Assembly (NCBI RefSeq): GCF_016907085.1
Contig: NZ_JAFBBJ010000001.1
Span: forward strand, 2,294,001 to 2,358,000
Direction: 5' to 3'
DNA: 64,000 bases
Source: Clavibacter michiganensis
Lineage (GTDB): Bacteria > Actinomycetota > Actinomycetes > Actinomycetales > Microbacteriaceae
Shown: piece by piece, positions 33,215 to 43,737 of the stretch
How positions within the stretch are numbered: position 1 is the first letter of the stretch
Layout of the letters: each line of letters starts with the position of its first letter
Notes under the pieces: generated by a model
What the model was told of the DNA's origin: nothing
What the model saw: only the letters and a program-made list of their open reading frames with translations
Databases searched by the model: none
Program-made: the position numbers and the translations under genes

Positions 33215-35488
33215 TCACCCGCCCGTCCGCGTCCGATCCCCTGCGAAGTTCCGCAGGCGCAGGCTGTTGGAGATCACGAGCACCGACGACAGCGCCATGG
33301 CGGCTGCCGCGATGAGCGGATTCAGGAAACCGAACGCGGCGAGCGGGATCGCGGCCACGTTGTACCCGAACGCCCAGATCAGGTTCCCCCGGATCGTGCG
33401 CAGCGTGCGGCGGGACAGCTGCACGGCATCCACTACCACCCGCAGGTCCTCCCGAACCAGGATGATGTCCGCGGCCTTCATGGCGATGTCCGACCCCTGC
33501 ACCATCGCCATCCCGAGCTGCGCGGTCGCGAGCGCGGCGGAGTCGTTGATCCCATCCCCGACCATCGCCACGCGGTGGCCCTCGGCCTGGAGCGACTCGA
33601 TCACGCCGGCCTTGTCTGCCGGCAGCACACCGGACACCACGCGATCCACACCCACCAGACGCCCGATGTCGTGGGCGACGAGGTCCCGGTCGCCGGTCAG
33701 CAGGACCGTCGTCAGCCCGAGCTCCTTCAAAGCCGCGACCGCGGGGACCGCGGAGGGGCGCACGCTGTCGGAGACGACGATGATCGCGGCAGGGGCGCCG
33801 TCCACGATCAGGGTCACGACCGTGCCCCCCGACCGCAGCACCCGGTCGCGAGCGATCCTGGCATCCCCATCCCCGTCGATGCCCTGCTCGGCGAGGAGGC
33901 GCTCGTTGCCGATGATGCAGGAGCTCCCGCCGACGGTGCCGGCGGCACCGGTGCCGACCAGCGCGCGGAAGTCCTCCACCGGCGGCAGCTCGGACACGAT
34001 GGTGCGGGCGTGGGCGACGACCGCGCGCCCGATGGGATGCTCGGATCCCGTCTCAAGCGCACCAGCGAGGCGCATCACCTCGGGGAGGGACCTGCCTGCG
34101 AGGGGGATGACCTCGGACACCTGCATGTTCCCGGTCGTCAACGTGCCCGTCTTGTCGAACACCACCGTGTCGATGACCCCGCTGGCCTCCAGGGCGTCCT
34201 GCCCCTTGATCAGGATGCCGAGCTGCCCGCCTCGCCCGATGCCCACCATCAACGCGGTCGGGGTGGCCAGGCCCAGGGCGCAGGGGCAGGCGATGATGAG
34301 CACCGCGATGCCGTTGCCCACGGCGGTGGCCGCCTCGGCGCCGACGAGCAGCCAGAGGGCGGTCACGATCGTGGCGAGCACGATCACGCAGGGGACGAAG
34401 ACCGCGGAGATGGCGTCGGCGACGGCTTGCGCCTTCGCCTTGCGCCGTTGGGCGTCGTCCGTGAGGGCCGCCATCTGAGCCAGACGGGTGCGCGTGCCGA
34501 CGGCCGTCACCCGTACGACGAGGCGTCCGGAGATGTTGGTGGTCCCGCCGATCACGGCATCATCGGGGTCGACCTCCGCCGGGACGGACTCCCCGGTCAT
34601 GGCGCTGGTGTCCACCGCGGAGCGGCCCGACACGACGTCCCCGTCGGCGGGGATCCTCTCCCCGGGCAGGACGACCATGCGGTCGCCCACGCACAGGGTG
34701 CTCGCCGACACGACCGTCTCCGTGCCGTCGGGCTGCATGAGGCGCGCTTGACGGACGGCGAGGTCGCCGATCGCGTTCAGCACGTCACCGGCCCGCCGTC
34801 GGGCCCGCGTCTCGAAGTAGCGTCCGCCGAGCTGGAAGGTGACCATGCCCGCTGCCACATCGAGGTAGATCGAGTCGGCACCGGCGGGGGTCACCCCGAA
34901 TCCCAGCCAGTAGCCGGGCGTGTCGCTCGGTGCGAACACCAGGGTCCACACGGCCCACCCGAACGAGACGACGCTGCCCAGCGAGACGAGCGTGTCCATC
35001 GACGCGGTGCCTTGGCGGAGCCCACGGAGGGTCGCGCGGTGGAAGGGCCATGCCGCCCAGGTGACGATCGGCAGCGCCAGGAGGACGCAGACCGCCTGCC
35101 ATCCGTCGAAGCGGAAACCGGGGACCAGGGCCAGGAGGATGGTGAGGTCGCACAGCGGGATCGTCAGCAGCGCGGCCACGGCCAACCGTCGACGCAGCGA
35201 GGTGATGCGCACCTCGGTCGCCCGGGCCGACCAGGTGTCGTCCTCACCGCTGCGGATGGCCGCGGTGTACCCGGCCCGGGTGACCACGTCGATGGCGCGC
35301 TGGGTCTGATGCACAGGCAGGCCGGTGACGAGGGCCCGCTCCGTGGCGTAGTTGACCGACGCGGTGACCCCGTCGAGCTTGTTGAGCCGGCGCTCGACCC
35401 TGTTCGCGCACGCCGAGCAGGTCATGCCCCCGATGTCGAGTTCGATCTGGTCCTCGAGGGTCGACCTCCGGTCGTCGATGGTGGTCAT
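33215..35488 (-). CDS. copA: Copper-exporting P1B-type ATPase
   Basis: A 757-aa Cu(I)-transporting ATPase. One N-terminal heavy-metal domain has GMTCSAC (Cys24, Cys27). The membrane metal site is CPC in IIACPCALGLATP with the TM7 Asn (GYNVAAIPLA) and TM8 MALSS, the Cu(I) signature. The phosphorylation motif is DKTGT, the nucleotide domain has SEHPIG and the hinge GDGINDSAAL. The ATG overlaps the stop of the CtaG/CopD gene by four bases. It removes cytosolic copper or supplies it across the membrane. Last gene of the long minus-strand copper/redox run. Confidence 0.95.
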   Translation of the reverse strand: MTTIDDRRSTLEDQIELDIGGMTCSACANRVERRLNKLDGVTASVNYATERALVTGLPVHQTQRAIDVVTRAGYTAAIRSGEDDTWSARATEVRITSLRRRLAVAALLTIPLCDLTILLALVPGFRFDGWQAVCVLLALPIVTWAAWPFHRATLRGLRQGTASMDTLVSLGSVVSFGWAVWTLVFAPSDTPGYWLGFGVTPAGADSIYLDVAAGMVTFQLGGRYFETRARRRAGDVLNAIGDLAVRQARLMQPDGTETVVSASTLCVGDRMVVLPGERIPADGDVVSGRSAVDTSAMTGESVPAEVDPDDAVIGGTTNISGRLVVRVTAVGTRTRLAQMAALTDDAQRRKAKAQAVADAISAVFVPCVIVLATIVTALWLLVGAEAATAVGNGIAVLIIACPCALGLATPTALMVGIGRGGQLGILIKGQDALEASGVIDTVVFDKTGTLTTGNMQVSEVIPLAGRSLPEVMRLAGALETGSEHPIGRAVVAHARTIVSELPPVEDFRALVGTGAAGTVGGSSCIIGNERLLAEQGIDGDGDARIARDRVLRSGGTVVTLIVDGAPAAIIVVSDSVRPSAVPAVAALKELGLTTVLLTGDRDLVAHDIGRLVGVDRVVSGVLPADKAGVIESLQAEGHRVAMVGDGINDSAALATAQLGMAMVQGSDIAMKAADIILVREDLRVVVDAVQLSRRTLRTIRGNLIWAFGYNVAAIPLAAFGFLNPLIAAAAMALSSVLVISNSLRLRNFAGDRTRTGG

Positions 35489-43098: not shown

Positions 43099-43737
43099 TC
43101 AGGCCGCGGTCGGAGGCCCGCGGAGCGGGGACGCTGCGACGAAGACGCCGAGGTCGCGGAGTTCGACTCGGACGACGTGGGCTACCCGGTGACGCACCTC
43201 CGCGCGAGGGGCGACCAGGAACGCGACGGCGCAGAACACCACTGCGAAGCTCGTGCGCGCGAGCGCGAGCACGTCCCAGAAGGCACGCTCGCCCAACCGC
43301 ATGGCGACGATCGTCACGATCGCGGCACCGAGGTGAGCGATCCACATCGAGGATCCTGCGTGCATCGCACCCATGCCCACCATGTCGGCCGACGCCGAGC
43401 CGTCGGTCACCACGTGACCGCCCATACCGTGATGGCCGCCGATGACCTGCATGGTCGTCGACGTCGGGACGCCGACGGAGAAGAGCAGATGCAGGATGCC
43501 CTGGCTCCCCGTCACGGCGAGGGACAGGCGAGTGGTCGAGACGGTGCGCCCCGCGAGAAGGACGCACGTCGGCACCGCGAGCGCCGCAGCGAGCACCAGG
43601 CCCACAGCTCCCGGCGCGTGTCCGCCCCCGGCCATGTGCGACAGCATCGCGACGAGGATCGCGAAGGCAGCCGTGACGAGGCCGCGCACGACGCGCGTCC
43701 CCCGCCCGGCCATCACCAGCGCCCCCGGTCCCCTCAT
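43099..43737 (-). CDS. His/Met-rich membrane protein (putative copper-binding)
   Basis: A 212-aa protein with about five helices. Between helices 3 and 4 lies an extracellular loop dense in His and Met (GGHHGMGGHVV, MVGMGAMHAG), the residue mix used by extracytoplasmic Cu(I)/Cu(II) sites. No named family is recognised. The frame opens at ATG 43737; a second ATG a few codons later is also possible. It heads the minus-strand run ending at copA, about 170 bases before the VKOR leader ORF, so a role in copper binding or sensing at the surface is likely but inferred. Confidence 0.65.
   Translation of the reverse strand: MRGPGALVMAGRGTRVVRGLVTAAFAILVAMLSHMAGGGHAPGAVGLVLAAALAVPTCVLLAGRTVSTTRLSLAVTGSQGILHLLFSVGVPTSTTMQVIGGHHGMGGHVVTDGSASADMVGMGAMHAGSSMWIAHLGAAIVTIVAMRLGERAFWDVLALARTSFAVVFCAVAFLVAPRAEVRHRVAHVVRVELRDLGVFVAASPLRGPPTAA

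Follow-up and report, generated by a model that had tools for sequence, protein, structure and literature searches.

The 64,000-nucleotide stretch of Clavibacter michiganensis DNA analysed here (the window; contig NZ_JAFBBJ010000001.1 of RefSeq assembly GCF_016907085.1, positions 2,294,001 to 2,358,000), which comes from a 3.32-Mb genome in a single contig, carries at 33215-43737 a minus-strand block of genes for a His/Met-rich membrane protein, VKOR, a DsbA-like protein, an importer of the FecBCD type, a DJ-1 superfamily protein, CtaG, and CopA. We propose that the core of this block imports a Cu(I)-isonitrile chalkophore whose ligand is hydrated to free the copper, a proposal that we hold with about even confidence for and against. 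That the importer captures a copper chelate is probable; whether the ligand of this chelate is an isonitrile appears evenly balanced. Moreover, on comparison with related genomes, the block is a composite in which importer, DJ-1, CtaG, and CopA genes were added separately to a resident His/Met-VKOR-DsbA copper module. More tentatively, with somewhat less than an even chance of being right, a mobile user cassette present in four phyla may pirate copper from the isonitrile chalkophores of neighbours, breaking the complex with a DJ-1-family hydratase.

The importer core and its DJ-1 superfamily partner

The importer consists of a lipoprotein substrate-binding protein (SBP) of a distinct subfamily (40285..41346; PF01497, Peripla_BP_2, 52.2 bits), a FecCD-type permease (39221..40288; PF01032, 324.3 bits), and an ATP-binding cassette (ABC) ATPase (38445..39224; PF00005, 105.6 bits). 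All three domains scored above the Pfam cut-offs and lie in one gene run, as in a FecBCD-type importer. Downstream on the same strand are the DJ-1 superfamily gene (37538..38383; DJ-1_PfpI), assigned to the isonitrile (isocyanide) hydratase (ICH) type by similarity to InhA and by its motifs; the gene for a CtaG membrane protein (35485..37521; Caa3_CtaG, PF09678, 269.7 bits), placed by its tree in an importer-associated type; and the gene for a CopA-type P1B ATPase with one N-terminal HMA domain (33215..35488). The last protein fits a copper P1B-1 ATPase, with 478.5 bits on TIGR01511 (cut-off 397), an HMA match of 43.5 bits, and the sequence ACPCALG containing the CPC motif. The closest named relatives of the SBP (91%) and the DJ-1 protein (95%) were found in Clavibacter sp. 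VKM Ac-2542. Hidden Markov model matches agreed with the families that a preliminary description of this DNA had assigned to the VKOR, DsbA, binding protein, permease, ATPase, DJ-1, CtaG, and CopA genes. CopD-CtaG fusions of the CtiP-like kind consist of a CopD domain and a CtaG domain; when the label CopD-CtaG was examined, its CtaG part was upheld (Caa3_CtaG at residues 385-629), and for its CopD part there was no Pfam match at E 0.01, a limit that a remote domain could escape.

When the DJ-1 protein was compared with solved structures, the best matches were 3ewn (a ThiJ/PfpI protein with no function name; 1.7e-43) and InhA (1.2e-42), the latter being the closest named enzyme; further matches fell to about 1e-12 or weaker, human DJ-1 reaching about 1e-11. 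Asp78, Cys163, and Ser164 of the window protein aligned with Asp17, Cys101, and Thr102 of ICH, respectively; Asp17 is described as the general acid/base and Cys101 as the nucleophile in the accessible part of PMC10971408. Each of the 19 locus relatives that scored over 250 bits kept the motifs LDxxGP and SVC[T/S]G, with Ser at the Thr102 position in the window and L021-L024 and Thr in the other 15 of the 19. GlxA-type AraC regulators carried Glu at the Asp site in five sequences inspected by eye, and DJ-1 likewise has Glu there. These features suggest that the window DJ-1 protein is of the ICH type and is a putative isocyanide hydratase.

The distribution of the importer was then compared with that of this gene. 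Among 199 family genomes, the SBP subfamily occurred in 2 (the window's own and G056, at 56%), the same search returning only relatives of 31-33% in congeners G034, G109, and G166; among 396 phylum genomes, it occurred in 1, namely the window's own. A GTDB genome scan yielded 27 SBP-subfamily loci in Microbacteriaceae, other Actinobacteria, Paenibacillus, Chloroflexi, and cyanobacteria. These are not 27 independent cases, as four records from several genera (L030-L033), which we take from their names to be of the cheese type, have near-identical DNA (96-98% of letters the same, ungapped, in five of six pairs; 83% over the full length for L031/L033). The unit common to the loci was SBP-permease-ATPase-DJ-1. 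An ICH-type gene adjoined 21 of the 27 subfamily importers, a count that takes in L032 (cut by the contig end) and L028 (Paenibacillus pasadenensis MER37), where the gene is split over two frames at 12823-13696, compared with none of 20 control importers; the controls had other FecBCD-type SBPs, came from the window's bacterial family only, and were viewed over about 7 kb on each side, the tested loci being more diverse. Loci lacking the gene were L035 and L036 (which end inside the permease gene), L042, L043, L045, and L047. In the window and 18 of the 27 loci, pairwise distances of SBP, permease, ATPase, and ICH correlated at r 0.80-0.93; in six of these 19 loci, distances of CtaG and CopA correlated with each other at r 0.97 and with the importer genes at r 0.23-0.56, the values being descriptive and the pairs not independent. 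From these patterns, importer-ICH and CtaG-CopA look like two modules that repeatedly meet.

The SBP subfamily was marked by W80, Y103, F277, and H343, invariant in 28 rows; of these residues, the 20 controls had H343 alone, in a single case. The two extra Cys residues pointed out in the preliminary description were indeed present, and they are in no way special, as both occurred in all 20 control SBPs; as candidate copper ligands they were rejected as nonspecific. Carriage on plasmids was considered and set aside: in a plasmid collection, there was no ICH match at 1e-60, and SBP matches of 32-35% were found in 4 records.

Other arrangements were noted around these importers. At L040:10001-13921 (Anaerolineae), several binding-protein matches stand in a row, followed by one permease and ATPase. 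Divergent from the SBP gene were GlxA-type AraC regulators (L026:8803, L030:8774, L035:2266, L036:8851, L037:8906, and L038:8855), with the DJ-1 and helix-turn-helix domains confirmed for L030 and the others recognized by profile or by eye; these are possible sensors of the imported ligand. The window itself contains a second FecBCD-type importer at 19344-23447, whose FecCD-like permease, at 718 aa, is of double length. The assignment of L030-L033 to the cheese-rind RUSTI iron island was considered and dropped; PMC5526665 describes an iron island, and neither "copper" nor "DJ-1" occurs in its text.

Copper genes and isonitrile biosynthesis loci

The neighbours of the subfamily importers were examined for copper genes. 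A copper marker lay within 7 kb of the SBP gene in 12 of 27 loci versus 3 of 20 controls, the latter having CopC only (one also weakly matching the His/Met protein). Over the same distance, CtaG, CopA, HMA, and PepSY_TM were found at 9, 8, 9, and 8 of the 27 loci, respectively, and each at 0 of 20 controls, with the HMA, PepSY_TM, CopC, and YtkA queries drawn from the tested loci and thus biased toward them. Moreover, in one SBP relative (P0082), a PCuAC domain (107.5 bits) was fused to the SBP via a Met/His/Asp-rich linker. An alignment of eight PepSY_TM sequences, including one taken from an isonitrile locus, showed four invariant His residues. The copper link drawn for the importer in the preliminary description thus gains support from comparative genomics, through the PCuAC fusion and the CtaG, CopA, HMA, and PepSY_TM neighbours.

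Further genes were observed at some of these loci. Beside the importer of L034 (3938-9297, Kineosporia) lie genes for an SbnA/cysteine-synthase-like protein with rhodanese, an ornithine/diaminopimelate-decarboxylase-like protein, a protein ending in a CopZ-like domain, and a pyridoxal phosphate enzyme resembling SufS, possibly a copper metallophore biosynthesis cluster. At L025:14191-18736 (Paenibacillus sinopodophylli), a gene for cytochrome bd subunit II (PF02322, 146 bits) stands just past the importer-ICH cassette, together with two ABC genes resembling cydC/cydD; bd oxidase requires no copper. Between CtaG/HMA and the importer, penicillinase-repressor/M56-peptidase-like genes were seen at L022:6363-7175, L024:6482-7710, and L023:6662-7872, the repressor family giving 57 bits on PF03965 at L024:7291-7710 and the M56-like genes being recognized by eye (that of L022 has no Pfam match). 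L028:4805-6175 was ruled out as CydA, Pfam showing a cytochrome c domain.

FcoT (PF10862) served as the marker for clusters of the isonitrile lipopeptide kind. Of 396 phylum genomes, 2 had a match, the window's own not being among them; of 301 genomes from the family to which one of these two belongs, 15 had one (17 places). The 17 stretches examined (G405, in three pieces, G533, and L114-L128) come from other actinobacteria, of a different family from the window. A ScoE-like gene adjoined FcoT in 16 of them; G405, the exception, is perhaps not a locus of this isonitrile type, because no ScoE, importer, ICH, or CopA match was found there, save one weak ATPase match. A G533-like non-ribosomal peptide synthetase (NRPS; over 1000 bits) was present in 8 of the 17 (G533, L115-L121), CopA above 300 bits in 6 (G533, L115, L121, L122, L123, L126), CtaG in 4 (L115, L121, L123, L126), a full SBP-permease-ATPase set in 3 (L114, L123, L126), and an ICH-like gene in 2 (L116, where the stretch ends within it, and L125); these are counts without a random-locus control and not a test. 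In L123 the order was SBP-permease-ATPase-ScoE-FcoT-FadD-NRPS-CopA with CtaG converging, the NRPS having condensation, AMP-binding, carrier, and reductase-type domains. In G533, HMA, PepSY_TM, and CopA come after the NRPS, and its PepSY_TM was 44% identical to those of importer loci L022 and L024 (24-29% to five others). Isonitrile production at L114, L123, and L126 is predicted from ScoE, FcoT, and FadD10. In a midpoint-rooted tree of 28 CtaG rows that carries a long-branch warning, one group (100/100) held the window CtaG, 7 CtaGs of importer loci, and 4 of isonitrile loci, and the 8 housekeeping and 8 CtaG2-type rows fell outside it.

ScoE, FcoT, and NRPS had no match in the 64-kb window, and ScoE and FcoT had none in any of the 27 importer loci, where the sole related match was a FadD10-like ligase in L047. 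A search of the window's own genome for isonitrile synthase (PF05141) gave no match and is uninformative, the positive control being silent too. The isonitrile idea, offered earlier as speculation, gains support from the ICH-type gene and from the partners shared with some isonitrile-type synthesis loci.

Two other substrates have to be considered. The importer might serve a copper metallophore other than an isonitrile, with the DJ-1 protein cleaving another ligand or repairing proteins or aldehydes. Such a role would agree with the copper linkage, which is independent of ICH, with the breadth of the ICH-like family (761 proteins at E 1e-15 or better, with names mostly uninformative among the 120 listed), and with the lack of ICH at 4 of 27 loci; it is opposed by the closest named enzyme being ICH, with Asp and Cys kept, and by the recurrence of CopA, CtaG, and FecBCD importers at isonitrile-type loci, and we consider it doubtful. 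It is likewise unlikely that this is an ordinary importer of an iron-siderophore, heme, or corrinoid, with ICH defending against isocyanide antibiotics and the copper genes present by chance or island sharing. A structure model of the SBP (predicted local distance difference test score 88.5) returned the common chelate-binder fold, many neighbours of which bind iron-siderophore, heme, or B12, the classes not being separable, and a likely defensive role of ICH is the published view in the accessible parts of PMC10971408 and PMC10792529. Defence, however, requires no importer, and further evidence against this explanation comes from the linkage of ICH to 21 of the 27 importers compared with 0 of 20 controls, from the PCuAC-SBP fusion, and from the frequency of copper genes near the subfamily, far above that in controls.

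The resident copper module and the deletion scar

Upstream of the importer on the minus strand lie three genes resident in the genus: those for a membrane-anchored DsbA-like thioredoxin-fold protein with the motif CPHC (41343..42149; PF13462, Thioredoxin_4, 83.4 bits), a VKOR family membrane oxidoreductase (42176..42823; PF07884, 128.7 bits), and a His/Met-rich membrane protein that belongs to no Pfam or NCBIfam family (43099..43737). Congener-wide searches took in CtaG, SBP, and DsbA. CtaG-like matches were found in all 17 congeners searched, each just 33-40% identical to the window CtaG, and a DsbA copy at 75-85% was found in 10 of the 17. Seven of these ten stretches were examined (L071, L077-L082). 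All seven carried the His/Met gene (57-74%, beside CtaG2), CtaG2, and DsbA, and none carried a close match to the window SBP, permease, ATPase, DJ-1, or CopA gene. L079 additionally carried PCuAC, a DyP peroxidase, and a VKOR 85% identical to that of the window.

L079 DNA aligned to the window at 43761-42853 and 42842-42001, placing a deletion junction at 42842..42853. Between these matches, L079 has about 4.47 kb that is not in the window and that contains PCuAC along with the greater part of both CtaG2 and DyP, the PCuAC and DyP domains being confirmed by domain search. At the junction lies a 35-aa open reading frame (ORF; 42820..42927, minus strand), which by DNA and protein alignment joins a CtaG2 N-terminal remnant to the DyP 3′ end. 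Its residues 1-25 aligned with CtaG2 at a score of 62 (maximum of 52 in 2000 shuffles), and it still overlaps the VKOR start by 4 bases. Because the L079 matches flank DNA with no window counterpart, this ORF is a remnant in which the start of a CtaG-type gene (CtaG2) is fused to the end of a DyP gene, both genes being otherwise lost. The run and coordinates of the block were thus verified, and the ten genes first counted became nine, the small ORF being discounted as a scar.

The block had also been described as one operon with many 4-base overlaps. Four exact overlaps were found, namely DsbA/SBP (41343-41346), SBP/permease (40285-40288), permease/ATPase (39221-39224), and CtaG/CopA (35485-35488), with gaps of 26 bp (VKOR-DsbA), 61 bp (ATPase-DJ-1), and 16 bp (DJ-1-CtaG), assuming that ATPase starts with GTG at 39224 and CtaG with ATG at 37521; the His/Met gene, however, lies 275 bp away from VKOR, so that one transcript across the whole block is uncertain. 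No sigma-70-like promoter was found in 32900-44200, which is weakly informative in a GC-rich genome. The overlaps and short gaps are what would favour a single ten-gene copper/disulfide operon with a shared evolutionary history, in which VKOR-DsbA would serve the importer. VKOR was found at 0 of 27 importer loci, and DsbA weakly at one (L034); congener VKOR/DsbA genes sit in a copper module of their own, from which the importer of the window is missing; and the deletion scar lies within the block. A unit of this kind is therefore very improbable, and disulfide machinery as an integral part of the importer, as first suggested, was rejected in view of these importer-locus counts and of the congener module.

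Next to the block, a TetR/MFS/acetyltransferase stretch (window 44095-47772) of lower GC is 92% identical to a distant place in congener G206 and looks separately acquired.

Points against the proposal, copper release, and known systems

An F420-0 importer, named earlier as a substrate that would refute the copper assignment, is very unlikely: the top NCBIfam matches of the three ABC parts were TIGR03868, TIGR03869, and TIGR03873, yet their scores (90.4, 296.3, and 296.1 bits) all fell below the cut-offs (392.4, 437.35, and 372.4 bits, respectively), another binding protein of the same genome reached 206.7 on TIGR03868, and cofD had no match in the genome in a search whose control worked.

Several findings nonetheless weigh against import of a Cu(I)-isonitrile chalkophore. 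Importers in isonitrile loci lie outside the SBP subfamily (124-157 bits, like controls), and the three importer-bearing FcoT stretches show at best a weak match to the G533-type NRPS. The CtaG tree was built without housekeeping CtaGs of the producer family, and importer locus L034 carries a CtaG2-type CtaG. The four loci without ICH in the available sequence belong to Chloroflexi or cyanobacteria (L047 ends 0.6 kb past the ATPase), and DJ-1 matches occur near two non-subfamily importers (L021 at 16962, 73 bits; L037 at 18422, 137 bits). Besides the query bias given above, a copper marker lay within 7 kb at 1 of 5 Paenibacillus loci (L028, YtkA). The resident copper module of L079 is itself flanked by a FecBCD permease and ATPase (40-44%; 308-2465), about 4 kb from DsbA, and at its opposite end by GlxA-like DJ-1 genes (94-107 bits; 15422-17227). 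Finally, the window enzyme carries Ser at the position of Thr102, which is important in ICH, and the window's own genome holds a second, unlinked ICH-like gene (43%).

Families, catalytic residues, linkage, and composite origin can be read from sequence; from these we infer the substrate, the direction of copper flow, and the hydration of the chelate. The binding lipoprotein would capture a complex of copper with a metallophore, in all likelihood an isonitrile chalkophore carrying Cu(I) and produced by other microbes, and the FecCD permease and ATPase would drive it into the cytosol. The ICH-type enzyme would hydrate the metal-binding isonitrile groups to N-formamides, and Cu(I) would be released because N-formamides bind copper poorly. 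CopA, via its HMA domain, might then carry Cu(I) across the membrane, and CtaG might help to supply copper to a heme-copper oxidase. VKOR and DsbA would be resident genes for the maturation of exported cuproproteins that came to lie upstream. If the cassette does pirate copper from neighbours, isocyanide hydratase gains a nutritional role, replacing or standing beside the defensive one, and a missing class of chalkophore importer is identified. The importer-hydratase pair is a testable candidate for chalkophore uptake and copper release and for the role of ICH, and it hints that microbes may pirate copper from one another. As far as the literature was searched, with many matches unread, an importer linked to ICH had not been described.

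The diisonitrile chalkophore loci (M. tuberculosis nrp; Streptomyces SF2768) are similar in that CopA, CtaG, HMA, or PepSY_TM adjoin such loci and FecBCD importers occur in 3 of the 17 stretches; they differ in that the window has no match to ScoE, FcoT, or NRPS and would use a foreign chelate. For mycobacterial isonitrile chalkophores, the accessible parts of PMC9600254 and PMC12140626 name no ABC importer or copper-release enzyme and report that PPE1, a predicted transmembrane protein, is needed in low copper. PMC7924339 places M. tuberculosis ctpB close to the ppe1-nrp operon and counts both among the targets of SigC. The window DJ-1 protein resembles ICH/InhA (PDB 6ni5, 3non) over about 200 residues, with the catalytic Asp and Cys kept, and differs in an N-terminal extension of about 60 residues, in Ser for Thr102, and in its frequent linkage to ABC importers. 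PepSY_TM proteins occur near 8 of the 27 importer loci; proteins of this type are known to act as reductases of ferrisiderophores, and one, CrpH, supports heme-copper oxidases (PMC13038864, accessible part), whereas the window has no PepSY_TM match.

The proposed system would be a copper counterpart of siderophore use by FepBCDG-Fes, in which FecBCD-type import is followed by the cytosolic esterase Fes freeing the metal. Both would combine import of this type with destruction of the ligand to release the metal; in the window, however, the proposed metal is copper, the ligand an isonitrile, and the enzyme a member of the DJ-1 superfamily.

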